This document shows, piece after piece, positions 7,692 to 21,781 of a DNA stretch of 64,000 nt. Source of the DNA: Fusobacterium varium (GTDB lineage Bacteria; Fusobacteriota; Fusobacteriia; Fusobacteriales; Fusobacteriaceae). Below the pieces are notes generated by a model that worked only from the letters and a program-made list of their open reading frames with translations, made no database searches and was not told the origin of the DNA. The position numbers were made by a program, and so were the translations under genes. Positions within the stretch are counted from its first letter, which is position 1. Each line of letters begins with the position of its first letter. The DNA lies in assembly GCA_900637705.1 (NCBI GenBank), contig LR134390.1, forward strand, positions 1,984,001 through 2,048,000, read 5' to 3'.

Positions 7692-7973
7692 TTATTCTAT
7701 TACTAATATTTTTGATTGTACAAATTTTATTGTTTTTTTAGGAACTATTTCTCTTATTTCATTTGATGTTGGACTTCCTATTCTTCTCTTTTTTCTTTTT
7801 AAAAGCGAAAATGTTCCCTTATTTTTAAATTTTACTTCTTCATCCATAGCTGTTACTTCTACTATTAGATTAAATATTTCTTCTATCTCTTCCCTTGCTT
7901 CTTCATATTCTATTGTTTCATCTTGTTCTTTTCTCAATTTTTTGTAATATGATACAAATTCCCTAGTGTTCAT
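7692..7973 (-). CDS. divergent HU/IHF-like DNA-binding protein (second of pair)
   Basis: 93 residues. The C-terminal half, 'VKFKNKGTFSLLKRKKR' followed by 'SNEIREIVPKKTIKFVQSK', follows the HU/IHF pattern of a beta-strand ('..F.GFG.F'), a basic arm and a final 'PA.K...FK..K' strand-helix. The N-terminal half is unusually acidic (EEAREEIEEIFN). HU proteins bend DNA as dimers. It overlaps the upstream paralogue by 11 bases, implying coupled translation and perhaps a heterodimer. It ends the polysaccharide transcription unit. Sequence is divergent, so specific function is open. Confidence 0.7.
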   Translation of the reverse strand: MNTREFVSYYKKLRKEQDETIEYEEAREEIEEIFNLIVEVTAMDEEVKFKNKGTFSLLKRKKRRIGSPTSNEIREIVPKKTIKFVQSKILVIE

Positions 7974-8274
7974 ATTCCTCCTCTATGAGAGTATTGAGCT
8001 CATTTACTTTATCTATCATTTTCATTCTAGGTTTAAATTTGATAACTTTCTTTTCTTCTGTTATCATCATTTCTCTAGTAGCTAAATTAAGTATTTTTCT
8101 TGGTTTTACTTCTTTCTTTTCAAATATTCCCCAGTCTTTTATTATTACTTTTTCCTCTTCTTCTAAAACATCAAAAAGAGCTTTCCAGAAAGAATCTAAT
8201 CTTTCTTTTGCTTCTCTTATGCTTTTTAGATTCCTTCTTTCCTTGTATAAGATTAAAAACTCTTTTTCTGTCAT
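7963..8274 (-). CDS. divergent HU/IHF-like DNA-binding protein (first of pair)
   Basis: 103 residues with the same plan as the following gene: an N-terminal helical part (MTEKEFLILYKERRNLKS), then 'VIIKDWGIFEKKEVKPRK' and 'KKVIKFKPRMKM', matching the HU core and the K-rich C-terminal strand. The start is preceded by AGAAAGGA. Only 30 bases separate it from the stop of wzx, with no terminator visible in the gap, so it is probably transcribed as part of the polysaccharide operon. A degraded tandem HU-like pair with the same 'WGVFEKKEVK' stretch occurs at 52124-52571. Confidence 0.72.
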   Translation of the reverse strand: MTEKEFLILYKERRNLKSIREAKERLDSFWKALFDVLEEEEKVIIKDWGIFEKKEVKPRKILNLATREMMITEEKKVIKFKPRMKMIDKVNELNTLIEEEYEH

Positions 8275-8304
8275 TATTTTTCCTTTCTTGATTTAATAAA
8301 TTTT

Positions 8305-9750
8305 TTATTTATATTCTTTCTTCATTTTGATTAAAATTTCTGTAATACCTTTCTTCAATAATTTTTCCTTAAAAAAAAGTAAAGTAATTATATATGTTAT
8401 TCCTCCAAAAATAAAACATAGAATAAATTCTTTTAAATATCCAAAATTTTGTAATTTAATATTAAAAATAACTCCTCCCATAACCAATGCTGAAAATAGA
8501 TATTTTAATATATTTTTATTGAAAAATCCTAAATATAAACTTTGTTTTTTTATAAAAAATAATTGAATGAGAATTCCTATAAATTCACCTAAAGTGATGG
8601 CTATAGCTGAACCAATTCCTCCATATTTCTCAGTTAATATTAATGAAATAAGTATTGATACTATCATTACTCCCATATTTCCATAGAAAGTATTTTTTTC
8701 TTTATTATGTGGAATTGAAATATTAGTATCTAAAAACACTGCTATAAAACTAAAAATTAGTAGCCCACTTAAAATTCTTAAAATATTAGTTGCTGGTAAA
8801 AAATTTTCTTTCCCCATTATATATAATATATTTTCAGATAAAAATAGTGTTCCTATTAAAAATGGAAAACTTAAAAAGCATGAAAAATTGAAAGAAGTAT
8901 TCACTAACCTTTTATATTCTTCTCCATCATCAATTTTATTATTTAATCTTGGAATAATTGTTTTGGTAAAAGAAAGAGAAATAATTACTATTATGGAAAT
9001 TAATTGCCTGCTTCTTGCATAGTATGCTACTTGATCCTTTGTTGAATTCAAACCTAGTATTATTTGATCTATTCCATTATATAAACATCCCATTATAACT
9101 TGAAAATAAAAATATTTTAATAATTTCATATATTTTTTTAATTCCAATTGTCTAAATAGTATTCTTACATATTTTTTGGAATTATATATATTAAATATTC
9201 CATTTATAGAAATTCCTAAAACAAGAAAAAAAACATACAAATAAATATCCTTTTCAGATTTTATAAATATAATCATAAATATAAAAGATATTATCTTGGT
9301 TAAAATACTTCTTTTAGCTATATATTCATATTCTTCTAATCCTATATAAAACCATTCCAAAGAAAATATACTCATAAATAAATTTAATGATAATATTAGA
9401 AAAATTTTAAAATATTGGTAAAGATTTGGAAAAAAAGAAATAACTAAGGAATATAATATACAAAAGAATAAAACAGAAATAAAATTTAAAAATAATAATT
9501 CTGAAAATATTTTGTTCAAACTTTCTTTATTATCTCTATTCTTTGCTACTTCTCTAGTACCATAACCAGTTATTCCTAAAGAAGATAAAGAGATAAATAC
9601 AGTAACTATACTTAAAGAAAAACTTACTTCTCCTATTAACTTTACTGAAAATATCTTATTTATATATATTGTGGTTATTAGAGGATAGGTTAAGTTAAAA
9701 ATTAAAAGTATATTATTATACATATAATTTTTTATTATTGATTTTCCCAT
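8305..9750 (-). CDS. polysaccharide flippase (Wzx/MATE-like)
   Basis: 481 residues with 12 or more hydrophobic segments. The N-terminal 'NLTYPLITTIYINKIF' and 'GITGYGTREVAKNRDNK' are characteristic of the RfbX/Wzx branch of the polysaccharide transport family, which flips undecaprenyl-linked repeat units across the inner membrane. It is the last membrane protein of the locus and partners with the Wzy polymerase encoded upstream. The gene starts 8 bases after the restored nucleotidyltransferase stop. Confidence 0.9.
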   Translation of the reverse strand: MGKSIIKNYMYNNILLIFNLTYPLITTIYINKIFSVKLIGEVSFSLSIVTVFISLSSLGITGYGTREVAKNRDNKESLNKIFSELLFLNFISVLFFCILYSLVISFFPNLYQYFKIFLILSLNLFMSIFSLEWFYIGLEEYEYIAKRSILTKIISFIFMIIFIKSEKDIYLYVFFLVLGISINGIFNIYNSKKYVRILFRQLELKKYMKLLKYFYFQVIMGCLYNGIDQIILGLNSTKDQVAYYARSRQLISIIVIISLSFTKTIIPRLNNKIDDGEEYKRLVNTSFNFSCFLSFPFLIGTLFLSENILYIMGKENFLPATNILRILSGLLIFSFIAVFLDTNISIPHNKEKNTFYGNMGVMIVSILISLILTEKYGGIGSAIAITLGEFIGILIQLFFIKKQSLYLGFFNKNILKYLFSALVMGGVIFNIKLQNFGYLKEFILCFIFGGITYIITLLFFKEKLLKKGITEILIKMKKEYK

Positions 9751-9758
9751 TTTATTCC

Positions 9759-10491
9759 TTAATTCACATCATTATTTTCAATATAACTATTATCAAATTT
9801 CTCTAAATCTTCAGGAGTCCCTAATACAAAAACATTTGAACTGTCTATTATTTTATATCCAATTTTTTATTTTCATTCAATAAATACCTATACATTGGTG
9901 CAATATAAATCTCTTTAAATTCTTCTTTTATTTTTTCTTTAGATTTCAAATAAATTTCTTTATAGTCTTTCCAAGATTTAAAATAGTAAAATCCTATTGA
10001 TGCTAAATTTGATATTCTCTTTTTTTCAACTATATCTATAACTTCAAAATTATTATTTAGTTTTATAAAACTCCATTTTTCACCTTCTGCTTTAAATACT
10101 GGTATATACCCATCAAATTTTTTCATTTCTTTTATTTTGGCTATTTCTCCTTTTATATAAGTATCAATATTATAAATTACTATTTCATCTTCAGATTTTA
10201 AATATTCATCACATAGAAAAACTGTATTAGCTTGTCCTTCTGTTAGATAATCAATTTCTTTTATTATTACTTTACTAATTTTTAGTTTATTACAAATTTT
10301 TTCTATAAAATTTCTATTATATATTTTTTTCTTACAACAAAAATAAATTCTTCATTCCATAATTCTTTCAAAGATAATAAAGACCATTCAAATAGAGTTT
10401 TTCCATTAGCTATAATCTCATATTTTGGAATTGAAATTCCTATTTTCTTAAATCTATTCCCTTCTCCTGCCATAGTAATAATTACTTTCAT
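9759..10491 (-). CDS. sugar-phosphate nucleotidyltransferase (frame interrupted twice)
   Basis: The start 'MKVIITMAGEGNRFKKIG' (residues 1-18) is the NTP-binding loop of the NTP_transferase fold. The frame breaks after about residue 53 at a T7 run (plus strand 10324-10330) and again at a T6 run (9863-9868). One additional base in each run gives a continuous product of about 244 residues, including '..YLTEGQANTVFLC' and '..SSNVFVLGTPEDLEKF', which is a normal length for capsule-type nucleotidyltransferases. It overlaps the HAD gene upstream by four bases (ATGA). The nucleotide and sugar used are not readable. The breaks look like assembly indels. Confidence 0.75.
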
Positions 10492-10877
10492 TTTTTCTCT
10501 CCTATTAACTTTAAAATTTCATTATAGTCCATCTTTTCAAATTCTTCGGGTCTTATTGCTTTATCATCTACATAAAACCCATTAATACCGCACCAAGGTT
10601 TACCAAAATAAATTTCATCATATGGTACTTCGTATTTATCCAACCATTGAAAAAGAATTTTAGCTGTATTAGCATTTATTTTTCCAATATTGCCTTTATA
10701 AGTTTTCATTTGTCTTGAAGTGTAAAGTATAATATAAAAATTTTTATCTTTATATTCTTTTAATTTATTTAGTATTTCTTTTTTAGGTTTTACTACTAAA
10801 TAATTCTCATTCTCTTTTCTTTTTTTACACAACGTTCCATCTATATCCATTACTATTACATTTTTATTTTCAATCAT
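10488..10877 (-). CDS. HAD-superfamily phosphatase (capsule type)
   Basis: 129 residues. 'VIVMDIDGTLC' (residues 7-17) is HAD motif I with the nucleophilic Asp and the acid/base Asp two residues on, and 'FYVDDKAIRP' near residue 106 supplies the metal-binding acidic pair. Proteins of this size next to sugar nucleotidyltransferases are common in capsule loci, where they remove a phosphate from a sugar or polyol phosphate. It overlaps the kinase-like gene upstream by 8 bases and the nucleotidyltransferase downstream by 4, so the three form a tightly coupled module. Confidence 0.85.
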   Translation of the reverse strand: MIENKNVIVMDIDGTLCKKRKENENYLVVKPKKEILNKLKEYKDKNFYIILYTSRQMKTYKGNIGKINANTAKILFQWLDKYEVPYDEIYFGKPWCGINGFYVDDKAIRPEEFEKMDYNEILKLIGEKK

Positions 10878-12522
10878 TTTTTATATTCTCACTTTCTAAA
10901 AGTTTGTTCAATATTTCCATCCCTATTCCCAACATTATTTTTTGTCTATCTGGTTTATCCTTATGTAATGGAATCATACTAAGAAATAATAACGCTTGTA
11001 TAAACTTTATTTTATTTTTTTCAATATTTGTAAATTTACTATAAAACAAATGTTTTATAAAATTATACTTTTCTTCATAATTAATTTTATAATTAAATCC
11101 ATTTGTTTTTTTTTCTATTGAAAATATATCTTCTACTATAAAATCATACATTCCATCAATACTATGTGCTAATTTTGCTAACTCATAATATTTATCTCCG
11201 TATATTCCATACCCACCAAATTCTCCACGTGGATCAACTAATTTTATTATATTATTATTAGGTTCATATAAAATATTAGCAAAAAAATAATCTCCATGTA
11301 TTATATTTAATTCTTCTATTTCATATAATTTAAAATAGACTATCCAGTATTCTAAGTTATCTATAATATAATTTAGGGTAAAAAATTTTTTATCATTAAT
11401 ATAAATACAATTTTCAAAAAAATGTTTAAATTCATAGTCTTGTTTTAAAAGTTTTAATCTATTTATTGTTTTTTCAAAATATATTTTTTTTAATGTTTTT
11501 TTTATTTCTTGATGATTTAATTTTAAATTATATTTTTGAAATTCTTTTTGTACAAATAACAATTTATTAAAAATCTCATCCCATTTTTTTAAATTATAGT
11601 TACCGTATAAATAAATATGATGTAGTGTAGGATAACTATAATATTCCATTTTTATCCATGGGTCATCTAAATTCACTGAATAAGAATATACCTTTGGAAT
11701 CAACCATTGTAAATTTTCTGGTAATTTTAAAAACCATTTTATTTCATCTATTAGCTTTTCTTTATTTTCACTTTTTTTTAATAAAATTCCTCTTTTTCTA
11801 TCAATATTAATTGAATTAAAATATCTAGTTTCAAGAATATTCTTAGCTATAAAGTAATTATCTATATGTCCAAAATCTATCCATTCTTTAATTAATAAAT
11901 AACTTATTTTAGTAAAATTGTTATATTTTTTTATCATTTCATAAAAACTTTCGCTTTTAGAAAATTTTAAATTACTAATTTCATGTTTCAATAATTTATA
12001 TAATAATCCTATATCATTAAAATTAAAAAAACCTATAAAAGCGTTATATTTATCTTCTTCTTTGTATTCTTTATCATAAATAACTAAATTATTCTCTTTT
12101 TTTAAAAATGTAGTCCATTTTGAAGAATCATATACATTGGTAAAATATATTATATTTTTTTTCAAATTTAATTTTTTAACTTCCTTGACTAAAGTGTCAG
12201 CAAAGTTTATTGATACATTTTCAATGTTTTTTGTATTATAATCATTTAAAACTGAATAAACTCCTCCTCCTATATCTTCTGTTCCGTTTAAATATTTAAT
12301 CTTAACTTTACTATAACATCTTGATTTCATAATATTTTTTAACTTTTCTGCTTCTTCATAAACAGTAATAACTATTTCATCATAAAATTCATTATATTCT
12401 TCATATATGTAATCTAAAGTAATTTTTTCATTTACTGGAATTGTTATTGGTGAAATCTTTCCATATCTTGCTTGCAAATCTAAATTTACAATTTTTGCAT
12501 TTGGTATTATTAATAATTTCAT
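10870..12522 (-). CDS. APH/choline-kinase-fold protein of the polysaccharide locus
   Basis: 550 residues. The C-terminal half has the aminoglycoside-phosphotransferase-type catalytic loop 'IIHGDYFFANILYE' (about residues 412-425) and the metal-binding 'KLVDPRGEFGG' shortly after, so it is a likely small-molecule kinase. The N-terminal ~230 residues ('MKLLIIPNAKIVNLDLQ' onward) resemble a separate nucleotidyltransferase-like or unassigned domain. It lies directly upstream of the HAD and nucleotidyltransferase genes. I infer that the trio makes an activated sugar or polyol for the polysaccharide; the substrate is unknown. Confidence 0.72.
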   Translation of the reverse strand: MKLLIIPNAKIVNLDLQARYGKISPITIPVNEKITLDYIYEEYNEFYDEIVITVYEEAEKLKNIMKSRCYSKVKIKYLNGTEDIGGGVYSVLNDYNTKNIENVSINFADTLVKEVKKLNLKKNIIYFTNVYDSSKWTTFLKKENNLVIYDKEYKEEDKYNAFIGFFNFNDIGLLYKLLKHEISNLKFSKSESFYEMIKKYNNFTKISYLLIKEWIDFGHIDNYFIAKNILETRYFNSINIDRKRGILLKKSENKEKLIDEIKWFLKLPENLQWLIPKVYSYSVNLDDPWIKMEYYSYPTLHHIYLYGNYNLKKWDEIFNKLLFVQKEFQKYNLKLNHQEIKKTLKKIYFEKTINRLKLLKQDYEFKHFFENCIYINDKKFFTLNYIIDNLEYWIVYFKLYEIEELNIIHGDYFFANILYEPNNNIIKLVDPRGEFGGYGIYGDKYYELAKLAHSIDGMYDFIVEDIFSIEKKTNGFNYKINYEEKYNFIKHLFYSKFTNIEKNKIKFIQALLFLSMIPLHKDKPDRQKIMLGIGMEILNKLLESENIKND

Positions 12523-12534
12523 TTTTTACCTCAT

Positions 12535-13576
12535 TTATTTATATAATTTAGTTTGAAAAATTTTCAACTCAATTTCATTTAAAATTCTAAAATCAATATT
12601 ATTAAAACTTTTATATAAATTCGTCCAGTCATTATATGTCATTTTCTCATCTTTTAATAAAAAATTTTCTGTTTTATCTTTTAATGAATTGTATTTAAAC
12701 CAATAGATATTTATGTTATCAACTATTAAAAACCTTTCTTTTAAACTTTTATAATATGATTCCAATGTATATTCTATTTTATAATTCGTTCTTTTTAAAA
12801 AACTTATACATAAATACATTTCACAATTACTAAATTTTTGCATTTCTTTTATAGTAGGATTTATTTTAATTCTATCTTCAATAGTAAACCTGCGTTTAGT
12901 TAAAGGTAAGGACCACATTACTTCTATATCATTAATATTTCCAAATTGAAACATATCTGAAAAAGAAAAGGGTATATATTTATAAGTATTATCCCCAATT
13001 CCTATAATTCTTTCCTTTTGAAATTTATTATTTATTGGATATTCCTTTAACAAATTTATTAAATAGATATCCAAATTTATATCATATATTCTTTGGTCAG
13101 TTCTAGTTTTCATTACATATTCTACATTAAGTTTTTTTAAATAATCCACTCCTGCTATAGTTGATGTTATTTGATAATTTAAATTTTCCATTCCTTTTTC
13201 AGGATAATTATTTTTTAAAATTTTATTCCTAATTGTTCAATCTTTTCAATTTCTTCTTTTTTTTGATCTTTCCAAGTAGATAAAACTATTTCACAATGTG
13301 GATAATTGAATTTAAGTAATTTCAAAGAATTGTATGTAAAACTTTCTTCAATTATAATTGGACCTTGCATTATAATTCCAACTTTAAAATTATTTTTATA
13401 TACTAATTTATATTTTGAAAAATTTTCTATTTTTTTTTAAAATATTTTAACTGCCAAAAATAGTCTGTTTTATCTTTCAAATCTTTAGGATCTAACTTTA
13501 TTATTATCATTATTAAAGCTTTAGGTATATATTTTGCTATTATTCTTTTCAATTTATTCTTATATTTTAATTTCAT
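12535..13576 (-). CDS. WavE-like glycosyltransferase (frame interrupted twice)
   Basis: The C-terminal part contains 'YVMKTRTDQRIYD' and 'DMFQFGN', typical of the WavE lipopolysaccharide synthesis family. The upstream part is in two other frames: 'MKLKYKNKLKRIIAKY' starting at ATG 13574-13576 (with AGGA upstream), and 'FKVGIIMQGPIIIEESFTYN', the usual N-terminal WavE strand. Breaks fall at a T9 run (13430-13438) and at adjacent A4/T4 runs (13217-13224). One extra base in each restores about 347 residues. It follows the GT4 gene by 18 bases. It probably adds one sugar of the repeat unit. Confidence 0.75.
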
Positions 13577-13594
13577 TATAAATTTTCCTTTTCT

Positions 13595-14783
13595 TTAATT
13601 TTTTTCAAAAAAATTTTTTATTCTTTCATCCTTTAAAATTTTACTCCAAATAAAATTTTCTTCAGACCATTTTATTGACAATAGATATTTTTCTTTTAAG
13701 TTTATTTCTTTATTTATAACCTTTAATACTTCATTTTTATATTGTTCACTAACTCCAATATCCGTTATTACTCCAATTTTTCCATTATTAGTTATATCTT
13801 TAGCCCCTCCTACATTTGTTGTAATAATATAATTTCCAAATCTTAATGCTTCAATTAGAACTATCCCAAAGCTTTCCCATTTTGAAGTAAATAAAAAAAC
13901 TTTTGCTCTATTATAATAATCATATAATAAATTTTTATCTTCTACATTTCCTACTAATATTACTTTCCTTTTTTTATCTAAATTATTTTTTACAAAATCG
14001 TCATAATTTTTTTTAAAATTTTCTGTATATGGTCCTATTATATAAACTTTCCACTCTTTTAAATCTACCTTTTCTATCGCCTCTAAAAGCATTTCATTAT
14101 TTTTTTCCACAGTTCCTATTCTTCCAACTGTAATCATTATATTTTCTTTTTCTTCAAATTTTTTAACTTTTATATTATTCTTTATTAAATAATCTTCATC
14201 AAATCCATTTGGAACATAAATTAATTTATCAGATATATTTAAACCACATAATCCATTATTAAATATCTCATTAAAGCATTCTTTTGTTTCACAAGAAATT
14301 AAATCAAATCTTTTTAATATATTTTTTAAAAAGAAAATTTGAATTTTTCTAAAAATATTAGTAAAATCTTGATTATAAAATCTTACTGAATGAATTGTAA
14401 TATCAAGTTTTGAATAAATTTTTCCATTTTTATTAAATAATTTATACAAAATATTAATATTAATTTTTCTAGATTAAAATGAAAAAACATTAAAAAATTA
14501 ATTTCTTTAGAATGTTTTATTATATATCTAGCAAAATTAATATTTGTTATTACTCCAAATTTATCATATTTAGAGTTTCTTTCTACAACTTTTAATTTTT
14601 TTAATTTTACTAATTCAATTCCATTAAAATTTGATTTTTCTAATTTTTTTTTGAATTAAAATATATAATTTTAGCTTTTAAAGCATACTCTTTACTTAAA
14701 TATAATGGTACTAATCCTACATCTTTATATAAATAACTTTTTTCCATTTTTACTGCTTCACAACATAATAATAAATTTTTCAT
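13595..14783 (-). CDS. GT4-type glycosyltransferase (frame interrupted twice)
   Basis: The C-terminal 284 residues form a GT-B glycosyltransferase family 4 domain: 'MITVGRIGTVEKN' followed by 'FTSKWESFGIVLIEAL', containing the E-x7-E motif that binds the nucleotide sugar. The N-terminal acceptor-side domain starts at ATG 14781-14783 behind AGGAAA and runs through two breaks at a T9 run (14644-14652) and a T5 run (14464-14468). Restoring one base in each gives about 396 residues, the family norm. It acts on the cytoplasmic face, elongating the lipid-linked repeat unit. Confidence 0.8.
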
Positions 14784-14869
14784 TTTATTTCCTCACAATA
14801 TTTTATAGGTAAAAATATAATTTTTATTTCAACCCTTTAAAGTACTCCTCTAATAAATATCTTCTCCTT

Positions 14870-15439
14870 TCATATATTTTTCCTATACTTTTTAAAAATT
14901 TGATGATTTTTATCTTTTTCAGATAAAACTACATCATCTTCTTTTAAACCATATTTTTCAAAATTCCAATTGATATCTATATCTTTATCATTCCACATTA
15001 TTCCAGAATCATATTCAGAGTGGTATAAGTCTGTACATTTATATTGAAATTCTGTTTCATCTTCCAATGTCAAAAATCCATGAGCAAATCCCTTTGGTAT
15101 AAAAAACATTTTCTTGTTTTTTGCGCTTAATTCTATTCCATACCATTTCCCATATGTAGGACTGCCTTTTCTAATATCTACAGCTACATCATATACAGCT
15201 CCTCTTATTACTCTTACAAGTTTTCCTTGAGAATGTTTAGTTTGAAAATGAAGTCCTCTAAGTACACCTCTTTTAGATTTAGAATGATTATCTTGTACAA
15301 ATTCTTCAAATATTCCAATTTCCTCAAATTCTTTTTTGTTGTATGTCTCCAGAAAAAAACCTCTTTCATCACCAAATACAGTTGGTTCTAATATGTATAG
15401 ACCTTCTATTCCTGTTTCTATCTTTTTAAATTTACTCAT
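14870..15439 (-). CDS. rfbC: dTDP-4-dehydrorhamnose 3,5-epimerase
   Basis: 189 residues, cupin fold. 'ETYNKKEFEEIG', 'QDNHSKSKRGVLRGLHFQ' (catalytic His and substrate Arg region, about residues 48-66), 'VYDVAVDIRKGSPTYGKW' and 'FIPKGFAHGFLTL' are RmlC signatures. It epimerises dTDP-4-keto-6-deoxyglucose on the way to dTDP-L-rhamnose. It follows rfbA by 14 bases. No rmlB or rmlD is visible in the window, so the remaining steps must be encoded elsewhere. Confidence 0.96.
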   Translation of the reverse strand: MSKFKKIETGIEGLYILEPTVFGDERGFFLETYNKKEFEEIGIFEEFVQDNHSKSKRGVLRGLHFQTKHSQGKLVRVIRGAVYDVAVDIRKGSPTYGKWYGIELSAKNKKMFFIPKGFAHGFLTLEDETEFQYKCTDLYHSEYDSGIMWNDKDIDINWNFEKYGLKEDDVVLSEKDKNHQIFKKYRKNI

Positions 15440-15453
15440 ATCTTCCCCTTTAC

Positions 15454-16317
15454 CTATTTGATGAGTTCCATCAAATATTTTCCATATTTAGATTTAAGTA
15501 GTGGTTTTGCTAATTCACATACTTTTTCTTTTGTTATCCAACCATTCCTATATGCAATTTCTTCAAGACAGGCTACCATTACTCCCTGTCTACTTTGAAT
15601 TGTTTTTACATAGTTTGCTGCTTCTAAAAGCGCTTCATGCGTTCCTGTATCAAGCCAAGCCATTCCTCTTCCTAAACTTGTTACATTTAGAGTTCCTTCA
15701 TTAAGATACATTTCATTCAGTGTTGTTATTTCTAACTCTCCTCTTTTTGAAGGCTTTACTTTCTTAGCTTTTTCTACTACTGTATTATCATAAAAATATA
15801 ACCCAGGTACTGCATAATTAGATTTTGGATTCTCTGGCTTTTCCTCTAATGATATTGCTCTGTTACTTTCATCAAATTCTACTACTCCAAAATCTCTAGA
15901 ATTTTGTACATAGTATCCAAATATTGTTGCTCCTTTTTTTCTTGCTTCAGCTTCTTTTAACATTCCTGTAAATCCATGACCATAAAATATATTGTCTCCA
16001 AGAACCAAAGCACACGAATCATTTCCTATGAAGTTCTCTCCTATTAAAAATGCTTCTACCAAACCATTAGGCTGTTCCTGAACTGCATAACTTAGGGATA
16101 TACCAAAATCTGAACCTGTTTTTAACAATTCTTCAAACATAGGAAGATCTCTTGGGGTAGAAATAACCAGAATATCTTTTATTCCAGCCAACATTAAAAC
16201 TGATAGTGGATAATATATCATTGGTTTATCATATATTGGTGTTATCTGTTTTGATATTGATTTGGTTATTGGATAAAGTCTTGTTCCACTTCCTCCTGCT
16301 AATATTATTCCTTTCAT
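15454..16317 (-). CDS. rfbA: glucose-1-phosphate thymidylyltransferase
   Basis: 287 residues, intact. '[20 protein letters not shown]' is the nucleotide-binding loop of RmlA, with '[17 protein letters not shown]' and '[14 protein letters not shown]' following. It makes dTDP-glucose from glucose-1-phosphate and dTTP, the first step to dTDP-rhamnose and related sugars. The ATG probably overlaps the restored wzy stop (ATGA), so it sits in the same operon. Confidence 0.97.
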
Positions 16318-17538
16318 TTATTTTCTCCTTCATAGTTTTTTTATATTCTTTTTTAGAAAATATTAAAAAAATATAAAATAATATTGCTCCAAAAGTATAA
16401 TAACTTCCCCATCTTATTAAGTATGATATGATTCCAATTGTAGCTGAAAAATTAATTGTAGATAGCAAAAAATTCTTTCTATCATAAAATAAATTTTTAA
16501 TTAATATATATCCAATTATTAAAAGACCTATTAATCCAAATTCTGTAAATATTCTCACAGCCATGGAATAACCATCTTCTGAATTTATTCCATAAAAAAA
16601 TAATTTTCATTAACTAAATATTTATAATATACTTGTTGAATAGTTCCTAACCCATTTCCAAATATAAAATGTCTTGATAATATTGCAGCTTTAAGATTAG
16701 AAAACAATGCAAATGTACTTAAATTTACTTTATTCAAATTAATATTCATTAAATTTAATATATAATTAGATGTTTCAAAAATTTTAATTTTTATCATACC
16801 TATATTAAAAATTTTTATAAAAATTGGCAACATTATCATTGAAGCTCCTATTCCATAAAATATTTTTTTTATTTCTTTATTCTTTATTAAAACTATAACT
16901 TTAAAAAATACATATAAAATAAATCCCATAAAAGCAATTGCAGTAAAAGTACAAATATATGAAATTATAAATATTAAATCTTGAATTTTTATTTTTTTTA
17001 CTTTTAATGATTCTTCTATTAAGTAGAAAACTGCTGGCATAATCACTTGCGCATAATTCCCTGGTTCCCCTGACATAGAAGAAAATTGTAGTATTCCTTT
17101 TAATAAACCATAATTATTTTCTATTCCCCAAAAAAAATATTTTCTTTGAAATATATTTATATTAAATAAATAATATACAACCCACTGAACTATTCCTATT
17201 AAGCAAAATAATTTACACATTTTTAAATATTTATTCCATATTTTTATAACACCATATTTAGAAAAAAACATCCAATAAGAAACTGTAATTATAGTGATTA
17301 CAATCATTTGTTGAATCATTTTATTAAATTTATATTCATACATTACAATAGCTACAATGGAACTTATAAAAATATATATAAGTAGTAGGCACACTTTTTT
17401 ATTTATTTTAAACTCATTTTTTAAGACTAAATAAACTAGAAATAAAAACGCTGAAATAATTTGAATTCTTGTTCGTATATCAAAGAATAAAACTGAAAAA
17501 ATTATAAGATTTATAAATAAACTATCTATTTTTTTCAT
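16314..17538 (-). CDS. O-antigen/capsule polymerase Wzy (frame interrupted)
   Basis: A very hydrophobic protein with about 10-11 membrane segments and a large loop ('[19 protein letters not shown]', about residues 150-170), the usual look of Wzy/O-antigen ligase polymerases. The first frame ends at '..ENYFFME' at 16585. One extra base in the A7 run at 16594-16600 joins it to '[20 protein letters not shown]'. A second T7 run (16336-16342) may hide another missing base; with it the gene would end at TGA 16314-16316, overlapping the rfbA ATG, for about 408 residues. Without it the frame runs on to 16229, inside rfbA, which is less likely. Confidence 0.72.
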
Positions 17539-18635
17539 AATTGATCTCCTAATAATAATTCAAAAAGCTCTTTCCAATTTTTCTTATAATTTTTATTTAA
17601 ATTATTTATTTTATTATTTTCATATTTATCTTCTTTATTTATAATTTTTAACATTTGTTTTTCTAATTCATCTTCAGAGTTTGGATTAAAAAATAAACAT
17701 TTTTCATATTCTCCTACAGTTTCATGTGCATACTCTAATTCTGATAAAATTATTGGTTTGTTATATATTTTAAATTCACTTATTGGTAATCCCCATGTTT
17801 CTAGTTTTGAAGGAAAAATCAAGCATTCTACTTTAGAATAATATTCAAATACTTCTTCTCTAGTTAATAATCCTAGAAATTCTATACACTTTAAATTTTT
17901 ATACTTTTCTACTATTTCTTTAGAATATAAATTCTCTGTACCATCAATTGTCAAATAAACTTTAAAATTTTTTTTCCTTTTTTTTCAAGTAATTCTACAG
18001 CCTTACATATAATTTCAAAATTTTTAAATATTCTAGGAAAAGAGGGATAAAAAATGTTTTTTTTCTATTTTATTTTTATTGTCATTTTTTTGAATTAAAT
18101 ATTTATTCTCTGGTGGAGCAACTATTATATTTTTATTTTATACATTTTTTCAAATTTTTTTCTTATCCAATCTTGTTGTACTATTACATAATCATTTCTT
18201 TTATATTGATTTTATATAAATATTTATATAGCTTTGAGAATAAAAAAACTTTCTTATCATATTTAATATCTTTAAACTTCATTTTATAGAAAGGAGTTGA
18301 ATTATGACAGTATACAGCTAATCTTTTTGTTTCAACATTTGGAGTTATATCATGTAATGACAACCACAAATATGGCTTTAATTCTTTTGATAGTTTTTTA
18401 AAATAGAAATACTCGTAATAACATCTTTTTATCCAACTTTTTTTGAATCTTCAAATTCTATAAATTCAATTTTATTTTCACTATCTAATTTTTTAAATAA
18501 ACCCTTTGTATGTACTAAAGCTATTATTTTATATTTAGAAGTTAAATTTTCTTCAACATATTTCAAACAATCTTTATATATTGATAGAATCCCACCTTCT
18601 GTCATATTTATTCCTGAAATTATAATTTTTTTCAT
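17535..18635 (-). CDS. GT4-type glycosyltransferase (frame interrupted about six times)
   Basis: Pieces in three frames form one protein: N-terminal 'MKKIIISGINMTEGGILSIY' from ATG 18633-18635, then 'LWLSLHDITPN' and 'AVYCHNSTPFYK', then 'DYVIVQQDWIRKKFEK', 'IIVAPPENKYLI', 'PRIFKNFEIICKAVELLEKK', and the C-terminal 'LIFPSKLETWGLPISEFK' with the GT4 donor-binding glutamates. About six single missing bases, all in A/T runs between 17.96 and 18.45 kb, explain the breaks and yield about 368 residues. This is the most damaged gene in the window. The start overlaps the GT2 stop (ATGA) and the stop overlaps the wzy start. Confidence 0.7.
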
Positions 18636-19483
18636 ATTTTTTTCCCTACTTTATATCCCAGCCATCTAACTCCAATATCAAATGGTATATATAGTGATTC
18701 TTTTATTTTTCTTTTTTTAATTAACTCTTTTATCAAATACATCAATAACTTTTTCCCTTCATTCTCTGTCTTTGAAAAATCTATTTCTTTTTCAAATAAT
18801 TTTTCAAATTTTCCTATATCTCTATATCTTTTATAGGAATCTTTTAAAGATAATTGGTGTGAATGCCATATTTTACTTTTTGCTGTATAAATAAATGATT
18901 TTCCACTTTCTATTATTTTAGAAGCTAAATATACATCTTCACTTGTTGGAGTAAGAAAATCGTATCCTCCTAACTTAAAAAATTCTGTTTTTAGTATTGC
19001 TGAAGATGCATCACTGTAGAATATATTTTTTCTTCCATTAACCTTTTCATTTTATTTATTACAGATTCTATTTTCATCAGGGTAATTAAATCTTCTAATA
19101 ATTTTTTCTATTTCAGAATGTTCCTCATATGCTATTTGCTTTGAAAAAGAAGCAATAATATTTTCATTTAAAGGATTAACTAATTCTTTTAGCCAATTAT
19201 TATCATAGGGTAATATATCTTGTGTTATGAAAACTAATATATCTCCCTCAGCTATTAATGCTCCTTCGTGTCTTGTTTTGGCATGATTAAACTTTTTAAC
19301 CTCTAAAACTTTATCAAATAGCTCTTTTGAGATTTCTAAACTTTTATCTTTTGAAAAACTTACCAATGCTATTAACTCAATAGAAAAATTACCTTTTTGC
19401 TCTTTGAGTTTTTCCACTAATTTTTTTATATAAATTTCTCCATTATATATGGGAACAATTATTGAAATTTTCTTATTTTTCAT
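18632..19483 (-). CDS. GT2-family glycosyltransferase with one in-frame stop
   Basis: 'KISIIVPIYNGEIYIKKLV' (about residues 4-22) opens a GT-A family 2 domain, with 'IAEGDILVFITQDILPYDNNW' as the DxD-like region. ATG 19481-19483 is preceded by AGGGGG and overlaps the upstream stop (TAATG). After about residue 143 a TAA codon at 19052-19054 interrupts the frame, but the same frame continues with 'DASSAILKTEFFKLGGYDF', 'WHSHQLSLKDSY' and 'FDIGVRWLGYKVGKKI', resembling rhamnosyltransferases, to TGA 18632-18634. Unlike neighbouring breaks this is a nonsense codon, not a net frameshift, although compensating indels cannot be excluded. Confidence 0.72.
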
Positions 19484-20844
19484 TAATATGCCCCCTTTTT
19501 CCCAATAACATTCTTTATTGTTTTTATTGTTATTATTATATCCAACCATAATGACCAATTTCTTATATAGTAGAGATCCAATGCTATTCTCTCATCATAA
19601 TTTTCTACATCTGACCTTCCATTTGCCTGCCACATTCCTGTTATTCCTGGTTTTACCATAAATATCTTTCTACTATTTTCTTCACCATAGTACATATCTA
19701 CTTCTTTTTGTACTACTGGTCTTGGTCCAACAAATGACATTTCTCCTTTTATTACATTAATAAATTGGGGAAATTCATCTAATGATGTCTTTCTTAAAAA
19801 TTTTCCTACTTCTGTTATTCTTGGGTCATCTTTAAGTTTAAAATTCTTATAAAATTCTTCTCTGAGTTTTTCATCTTTTGATAACATCTCTTCCAGTCTC
19901 TTCTCTGCATCAGCATACATAGTTCTAAACTTATACATTTTAAAAGTTTTTAGGCACTGGCCTATTCTTGTATGAAGAAACATTGCTTTTCCTCCATCTT
20001 TTTTTATCTTTGGTGCATATATAAGGTAAAGTATGGAAAGGACTAGACACCCTATTATTCCAGTAACTAAATCAAAGCTTCTTTTAAGAAATTTGTTTGT
20101 TCTTCTATTCATTCCATTGTATGAAGATACAAGCATTATTCCATCATAATCCTCTATACTTGAATTAAAAGTATATGTTCCATTTAATTCTGGTGTAAAT
20201 TTTATCTTATTTACTTTTCCATCCAGCCTATTAATTATTTCTGCCATCTGCTTATTATCTGCCAATGGTAGTGCTATTATCACTTCATTTATTTGATTCT
20301 CTTCTATTACTTTTTCTATATCACAGCAGTTTCCAAGTATTTTATTCTTTTCTATCTGTATATTTTGATTAACTCCTTCCAAAGAATTAGCGCTTATATA
20401 TCCTAGTAAGTTGTACATTGTAAAATCATTCTCTTTAATTACATGAGTTAGTTCTTTGGCTGTATTTCCAACTCCTATAATGAGAAGTCTTTTTTCTAGT
20501 GATTTTCTAAATATATTCCTTATGATTTTTATTATGATTAAATTAAAGAAGGTAAATGTTATTCCTACTATCAAATGAACTAGGATATATTTACTTCCCC
20601 AGAATGCTGCATCATTTATCAACATAATTATGAGGTATTCTGTATGTACAAAGAGTTGTTTTTTCAGTTCCTCCCATATGAGTATAGTTTTAAAGGAATA
20701 CATATTTTTAGTAAGATTTAATGCAAGATAGATGAAGAAAGTATTATACATAATTCTGTCTGGTACGTTAAATATTTTATTTATTAAAAAATAGAATAAA
20801 AACTGTAATACTATCATTAAAACTTTTGAACTTTGCCTTTTCAC
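19483..20844 (-). CDS. undecaprenyl-phosphate sugar phosphotransferase (WbaP/WcaJ type)
   Basis: 453 residues: four N-terminal membrane segments, a nucleotide-binding-like middle domain ('LLIIGVGNTAKELTHVIKEN'), one more membrane segment (about 258-278), and a C-terminal bacterial sugar transferase domain with 'FKMYKFRTMYADAEKR', 'RKTSLDEFPQFINVIKGEMS', 'FVGPRP' and 'VKPGITGMWQANGRSD'. Such enzymes transfer the first sugar-1-phosphate to undecaprenyl phosphate and so start repeat-unit synthesis. The start codon is GTG at 20842-20844 behind AGGGGAAA. It is the first gene of the polysaccharide operon, downstream of the candidate invertible promoter. Confidence 0.93.
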   Translation of the reverse strand: MKRQSSKVLMIVLQFLFYFLINKIFNVPDRIMYNTFFIYLALNLTKNMYSFKTILIWEELKKQLFVHTEYLIIMLINDAAFWGSKYILVHLIVGITFTFFNLIIIKIIRNIFRKSLEKRLLIIGVGNTAKELTHVIKENDFTMYNLLGYISANSLEGVNQNIQIEKNKILGNCCDIEKVIEENQINEVIIALPLADNKQMAEIINRLDGKVNKIKFTPELNGTYTFNSSIEDYDGIMLVSSYNGMNRRTNKFLKRSFDLVTGIIGCLVLSILYLIYAPKIKKDGGKAMFLHTRIGQCLKTFKMYKFRTMYADAEKRLEEMLSKDEKLREEFYKNFKLKDDPRITEVGKFLRKTSLDEFPQFINVIKGEMSFVGPRPVVQKEVDMYYGEENSRKIFMVKPGITGMWQANGRSDVENYDERIALDLYYIRNWSLWLDIIITIKTIKNVIGKKGAY

Positions 20845-21138
20845 TTTCCCCTAGCTCCTTGACTTTTATTTTAAGATGTTTATTTTTCTTTTTTTATTCC
20901 AAAAATATAATTTATTTTTCTAAATTTTATATTTTTTATATATTTTGTAATATTTTTTATCCAAAACTTATATTTAGTAATAATATTTAAAAACAATTGA
21001 ATTTAAACGATATTTTATCTCAAATATTCATTTTCCTTCTATGTATTTTCCAAATTTTAATTTTTATATTTTTCTAACTTTCAAAATTTAATGGTAATTT
21101 TAAAATTTTGTAAAAATAAGCACTTTCATAAAATTGGG
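20845..21138 (-). other. leader region between inverted repeat and polysaccharide operon
   Basis: About 290 extremely A/T-rich bases without an open frame. I found no convincing minus-strand -35/-10 pair here, so transcription of the polysaccharide operon probably has to enter from the inverted-repeat segment or beyond. No ops/JUMPstart-like element was seen. Confidence 0.5.
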
Positions 21139-21364
21139 AAAAGTTCGCATTATTACAATAAAGAGAACTTTTTTGCCACCAAATCTCAGTAAAATCGTTC
21201 TAACATTTCTTAAAAATGTCAAATTATACCCTTTTTTGGTATTGACATTCTTCCGTTTTAGTAGTATCATTTTTCTATACTTATCTATAATTCTAAAAAG
21301 TTTTAGCTTGGAAAATATAAAAAATATTTTCACAGGGCGCCTTATTGTAATAATGCGAACTTTT
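21139..21364. repeat. candidate invertible promoter element (23-bp inverted repeats)
   Basis: The left arm 21139-21161 begins AAAAGTTCGCATTATT and ends ACAATAA; the right arm 21342-21364 is its exact reverse complement over all 23 bases. They enclose 180 bases that hold a promoter. This architecture matches invertible promoter segments that switch capsule loci in gut bacteria such as Bacteroides fragilis. As sequenced, the strong internal promoter points to the right, away from the polysaccharide operon. No recombinase gene is encoded next to it, so an invertase would have to act in trans. Inversion itself is inferred. Confidence 0.75.
21242..21270 (+). promoter_or_regulatory. sigma70-type promoter inside the inverted-repeat segment
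   Basis: TTGACA at 21242-21247, a 17-base spacer, and TATCAT at 21265-21270. It reads rightwards, towards the convergent proA end where no plus-strand gene follows. After inversion it would read leftwards into the sugar-phosphate transferase gene with a leader of roughly 390 bases. On the opposite strand the only candidate inside the segment (TTGACA at 21222-21217 with AACGAT) is much weaker. Confidence 0.7.
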
Positions 21365-21781
21365 ATACCTCCTAACCTCCTATTTTTTAAGAAGTCATTT
21401 TTTGGCCCCTTTATTTTTAGGGTTTTCCTATTTTTCTACCTTTCCTATATTTCCAGTCTTTGTTCATTGCAAATATTTCTTTTTCATATATATCTTCATA
21501 CTTTTTTTGTATTTTTATTTTTTTAATTTTCTAATTTTTTACTTATATTTTTCATTTTTCACAATATATTATTTTTTTATTCATACAGTTATTTTTCATA
21601 TATTTATTCCTCATTCTTCTCTACCATTACATTTCCCTTTCATAGTTGAAATACGATTATTTTTATAATGTTTATTCTTAGTTTTTATCTCATTAAAAAA
21701 ACTATATATTTTTCTTTATACTCAAGAAAATTATATTAATATTAAAAACTTTATATACTATTAAAATTTATTTTTAGGTAC
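21365..21781. other. A/T-rich intergenic region
   Basis: About 420 bases between the inverted repeat and the proA terminator. Open frames here are low-complexity F/L/Y/S-rich translations of T-rich sequence and not credible genes. I see no RNA gene or repeat in it. Confidence 0.5.

Follow-up and report, generated by a model that had tools for sequence, protein, structure and literature searches.

How would a polysaccharide operon be transcribed when the promoter upstream of it points the other way? The question is raised by a 64,000-nt stretch of the Fusobacterium varium genome (the window; genome G000, 3.30 Mb, 3,302,398 bp), in which a 23-nt inverted repeat (21139-21161 and 21342-21364) encloses 180 nt between arms that are 100% complementary, as the original prediction had it. 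Among perfect inverted repeats whose arms are 20-400 nt apart, it is the longest in the window; six first-order Markov resamples of that sequence contained none of at least 16 nt at such distances, and a chance origin is rejected. Between the arms lies a plus-strand promoter, TTGACA-N17-TATCAT (21242-21270, 11/12 match), whose hexamers and spacing are common to its paralogs and which, again as predicted, faces away from the minus-strand polysaccharide operon to its left. The locus is thus laid out like an inverton, in which inverted repeats flank a promoter ahead of a surface gene. On the comparative evidence set out below, we consider the segment at 21162-21341 very probably to be an invertible promoter that is currently OFF and needs a recombinase acting in trans, one of 25 such loci in this genome, a reading that draws on sequence comparison with the window locus itself known from one genome of the species.

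The operon and its leader

The leader that separates the switch from the first gene (20845-21138, minus strand, 294 nt) was predicted to have no clear promoter of its own, and this agrees with our scan: its best promoter-like matches reach 9/12, and such matches are no more numerous than chance would give (9 in the region scanned, 9.4 in shuffles). This count bears on an alternative in which inversion is real but the operon is mainly driven from a leader promoter, so that orientation only tunes expression. The leader is AT-rich and does hold sites of this 9/12 quality, but with their number at the level expected by chance we regard such an arrangement as unlikely. In the preferred reading, that of a promoter switched by inversion, the operon is predicted to be silent in the sequenced orientation, and after inversion the promoter would read through the left site and the leader into the sugar-transferase gene.

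The operon (7692-20844, minus strand) encodes the sugar transferase, glycosyltransferases, RmlA/RmlC-like proteins, a WavE-like protein, a Wzx-like flippase and a pair of HU/IHF-like proteins, its extent and the RmlA/RmlC names being inferred from gene order and sequence. The first gene (19483-20844, minus strand) specifies a 453-aa polyprenyl-phosphate sugar transferase that matches Bac_transf, with TIGR03025 above the cut-off and the WbaP model TIGR03022 below it. At the far end stand two minus-strand genes in tandem, for HU/IHF-like proteins of 103 aa (7963-8274; PF00216, 4.2e-14) and 93 aa (7692-7973; profile match), each with a weak IHF-alpha match below the cut-off. An in-frame stop (~19052-19054) and frame changes interrupt the glycosyltransferase region after the first gene (18187-19591), and the paralogous operon reads through the position corresponding to that stop; either a silent operon is decaying or the sequence contains errors.

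A site family in the genome and its relatives

The original prediction proposed looking for the arm at other surface loci, and it does recur there: the exact arm occurs at four places in G000, forming two inverted pairs, and a variant with three mismatches marks a third. The second exact pair (G000:624250-624470) encloses a segment near-identical to that of the window and precedes a paralogous polysaccharide operon, while the variant-arm pair (G000:885559-885769) precedes a gene whose product we take, from its sequence, to be Wzz-like. A model built from 16 sites gave 69 matches in G000 at E <=1, and a weight-matrix scan of the fetched loci resolved 25 inverted pairs, the window pair included; mononucleotide shuffles of the same loci, which had been picked for having matches, yielded none. 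The pairs precede large autotransporter genes, polysaccharide operons and HU/IHF-like genes. An autotransporter beta-domain was found in all three large adjacent proteins that were tested, and the remaining large genes were classed as autotransporters by a common signal-like N-terminus.

Comparison of these sites refines the 23-bp arms, which are the visible part of a larger functional unit: a 34-bp quasi-palindromic recombination site, GTTC-N18-GAAC, with a 6-nt spacer at its centre. The left site of the window (21139-21172, plus strand; PWM score 41.7) reads AAAAGTTCGCATTA-TTACAA-TAAAGAGAACTTTT, with the spacer at 21153-21158. Its inverted partner (21331-21364, minus strand; PWM score 29.6; spacer TTGTAA at 21345-21350) is less symmetrical, its inner half being a degenerate GGGCGCC that is also present at the paralogous polysaccharide loci.

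The same sites are abundant in three sister-species genomes (G025, G026 and G027), which contribute 61 inverted pairs beyond the 25 of G000, or 86 in total. A single site-model search of 12 genus genomes returned 69, 60, 81 and 89 matches in G000, G025, G026 and G027, and 1-10 in each of the other eight, among which a broader model (51 sites) recovered clear pairs in G028 only. The three G028 pairs have matching spacers; in one the sites are ~640 nt apart, and one precedes the orthologous sugar-transferase gene. Under stricter filters, the 51-site model gave three weak matches in two of 49 genomes from other genera of the family. The arm pattern with at most one mismatch is present in 4 of 61 family genomes; in a wider contig collection it appears in 20 stretches from unrelated taxa, with a single match in each, and no match came from viral contigs (two scans), plasmids or phages. 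The four site-rich genomes look like Fusobacterium varium/ulcerans relatives, which are gut bacteria.

G025:C1:2934125 and 2935001 are spacer-matched sites 876 nt apart, far beyond the usual 142-233, and G028:C62:8923-9103 is a weak pair with matching spacers before a secreted-protein-like gene, with a 266-aa tyrosine recombinase ~1.1 kb away.

Within pairs, the spacers are identical (as reverse complements) in 84 of 85 cases, though nine spacer types exist, a count made without the window pair and the G027 pair 3885762/3885948 (at a locus edge) and including many paralogous copies, so that it does not amount to 85 independent cases. When partners were shuffled in 2000 trials, spacer-matched pairs averaged 17.8 and never exceeded 29. 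The excess of within-pair identity over the shuffles was largest in columns 14-21 and smaller in columns 9-11 and 26. A spacer that is matched within pairs yet variable between them behaves as the overlap of a tyrosine recombinase does.

The single exception to spacer matching, G000:C1:1564469, lies between two neighbouring autotransporter genes. Its partners belong to two different spacer types, as would result if adjacent copies had rearranged with each other, and this pair is predicted to be unable to invert.

Enclosed promoters, flipped loci and apparent deletions

A promoter of at least 10/12 (TTG-N17-type) is present inside 72 of the 86 pairs, against 1.5 expected from resampling; the other 14 are without a clear promoter. 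Relative to the adjacent gene, whose side and type were set by rules with one manual override, 64 of the 72 promoters point away (OFF, the window included) and 8 toward it (ON). In G000, 21 loci with a promoter are OFF and 1 is ON. By gene type, 1 of 42 autotransporter loci with a promoter is ON, as is 1 of the 11 paralogous polysaccharide loci, the other 10 being OFF. Five of the eight ON cases precede HU-like genes and may form a separate class. The strong excess of OFF promoters is a point against inversion, for switching must then be rare or strongly biased in the cultures that were sequenced. Orientation would control transcription.

Inversion had itself been deduced from the geometry of the window, and the comparison of relatives bears it out in part. 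When outer flanks were set against inner segments in all pairs compared, 205 comparisons showed the same relative orientation and 16 a flipped one, and the 16 trace to four loci: G025:912833, G025:2099438, G026:958539 and G026:3783349. Four clusters thus include both orientations when paralogs and sister species are compared, but no flip was seen at the window locus, which is represented by one genome. One of the four, G025:912833, is a flipped paralog of the window segment at a polysaccharide locus with the flanks of the window locus, where the promoter points toward the operon (ON). Polymorphisms in the arms there divide within the site, the outer halves staying in place and the inner halves swapping, which locates the crossover within the site. 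The autotransporter locus G026:958539 likewise has the ON direction; among the other two flipped loci, the promoter-like sequence is weak at G025:2099438 and the promoter is degraded at G026:3783349. The original prediction, which drew a likeness to phase-variable capsule promoters of Bacteroides, is supported by this flipped polysaccharide paralog.

A related outcome is found at two single sites of G000 (595778 and 2105536), each of which joins the outer halves of a normal pair directly, without the segment. They look like exact deletion products; for a third single site (G000:1840153) the resemblance is less clear.

These observations also bear on two readings in which nothing is inverted. 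If the arms were operator sites of a dimeric regulator and the promoter were fixed, the palindromic, strongly conserved form of the site and its same orientation at most loci would be expected. An operator, however, gives no reason for spacers that match within a pair yet differ between loci, for the flipped inner segments at four loci or for single sites that join two outer halves, and we consider this reading very improbable. We give equally little credence to the segments being copies of a miniature transposable element inserted by chance before surface genes. Several clusters are indeed near-identical paralogs within one genome, but the same sites surround many inner-sequence clusters, the flanks are conserved along with the segment, and nearly all segments carry a promoter. 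Operator palindromes and miniature transposons were both rejected on spacer matching and the inner-segment comparisons, and we continue with the promoter inversion that these favour.

Candidate enzymes, HU/IHF-like proteins and known systems

The window contains no match to a tyrosine or serine recombinase, in keeping with the earlier remark that none is nearby, and the invertase must therefore act in trans. G000 encodes eight tyrosine recombinases above the family cut-off and one serine recombinase. The original prediction left both enzyme types open; short tyrosine recombinases are present, but a small serine invertase was not found, the only resolvase-domain match of G000 being a 456-aa open frame that was rejected as a candidate. 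The matching of spacers and the nature of the candidates, together with the lack of a small serine invertase, make the enzyme likely to be a tyrosine recombinase rather than an Mpi-like serine invertase. Two short tyrosine recombinases of G000 come into question, of 189 aa (G000:1408056-1408622) and 198 aa (G000:358180-358773). The presumed catalytic residues are intact in all nine aligned candidates, these two included. The matrix scan found no sites in the G000 stretches around either gene.

We infer that the 189-aa gene is the first candidate and the 198-aa gene the second. The 189-aa type is found at 91-94% identity in the four site-rich genomes and at 65% in G028, where this ortholog is the only short tyrosine recombinase, and it is favoured because G028 has spacer-matched pairs and only that short type. 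In most loci examined, a canonical HU gene follows the 189-aa recombinase gene. Counting against it, the 189-aa type also occurs at 56-62% identity in five genus genomes without detectable sites. The 198-aa protein could instead be the master invertase, which we regard as possible though somewhat less than probable. Of the 61 genomes searched, only the four site-rich ones have orthologs of it at 75% identity or more (one to several copies each), a range that matches the distribution of the sites; one G027 copy (3156432) is ~3.5 kb away from the pair at 3160568, and ~1 kb upstream of the G026 copy stand two HU-like genes in tandem. Against this, G028 has its three spacer-matched pairs but no 198-aa ortholog, and the 189-aa protein retains first place.

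Other traces of this enzyme class were noted. About 4 kb from the pair at 1145040 lies a decayed gene related to the 198-aa recombinase and interrupted by five stops (G000:C1:1140660-1141127), and two small contigs of G027 (C2 and C3), probably plasmids, carry more short tyrosine recombinases and HU-like genes.

In the mechanism that we propose, a short tyrosine recombinase whose gene lies at another place on the chromosome would bind both inverted 34-bp sites, and strand exchange within the matching 6-nt spacer would turn the promoter round. One enzyme family would serve the 25 G000 loci, mainly autotransporter adhesins, to yield combinatorial ON/OFF variation of the cell surface.

HU/IHF-like proteins would take part in the switching. 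The four inverton-rich genomes have 48, 55, 56 and 58 PF00216 matches, compared with 15 in G028 and 4-7 in each of the seven others. Among the 29 of the 48 G000 matches that were listed, 20 are no more than 7 kb from a site, whereas random circular shifts average 2.9, and within the stretches examined HU/IHF-like genes occur at 14 of the 25 pairs, usually two in tandem. A network confined to a sub-lineage of the genus may tentatively be drawn from this, in which one tyrosine recombinase beside a canonical HU gene flips ~25 promoters, divergent HU/IHF-like pairs borne by many of the loci set orientation bias or cross-talk, and the surface locus being expressed influences in turn how the others switch.

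A small-scale counterpart is fimS of E. coli, a short single-promoter switch that is inverted by recombinases of ~200 aa (FimB/FimE) with IHF as accessory protein. The fim system is one locus with adjacent recombinases, whereas here one site family is addressed in trans at 25 loci, with expanded HU/IHF-like paralogs, and no recombinase gene adjoins the switch in the window. At the scale of a genome, Mpi of Bacteroides fragilis is a trans-acting master invertase of 13 regions, seven of them polysaccharide promoters (PMC4747536). The likeness is that one trans enzyme is proposed for many distant promoters, capsule or polysaccharide included. Mpi, however, is a serine recombinase, whereas a tyrosine recombinase is indicated here, with no small serine invertase found in the genome; in addition, the targets here are mostly autotransporters, and many loci encode HU/IHF-like pairs. 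Further B. fragilis master invertases, Tsr19 and Tsr0667, act on local and distant surface-gene promoters, and Tsr19 is a tyrosine recombinase encoded beside one target (PMC4747536), unlike the G000 candidate genes, around which the matrix scan found no site.

The F. varium strain Fv113-g1 has a 3.96-Mb chromosome, two plasmids and 39 chromosomal autotransporters, which its report catalogues as candidate virulence factors, with only a few of them notably expressed in culture (PMC5720691). The main text has no terms starting with invert or promoter (PMC5720691). Searches of open-licence literature on Fusobacterium gave no title or abstract opening that describes such a switch system, and the genus is absent from the main text of an inverton profiling of a 125-strain gut community. 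A common inversion site would offer one explanation for mostly silent autotransporters and predict which are switchable, and would supply PCR-testable markers. Global promoter inversion would then also be known from the Fusobacteriota, carried out by what is probably a tyrosine recombinase, and would be connected with the expanded set of HU/IHF-like genes (48-58 copies, compared with 4-7 in most relatives).

One further motif, [CG]TCATTTTTT, is present at 21394-21410 of the window and in many inverton segments. It occurs in or near 38 of the 86 pairs against 3.0 expected, paralogs included. Where a locus has one clear promoter (36 loci), 37 of the 38 copies are on the promoter's strand, 28 of these upstream of it, and the motif is a possible site for an accessory protein.
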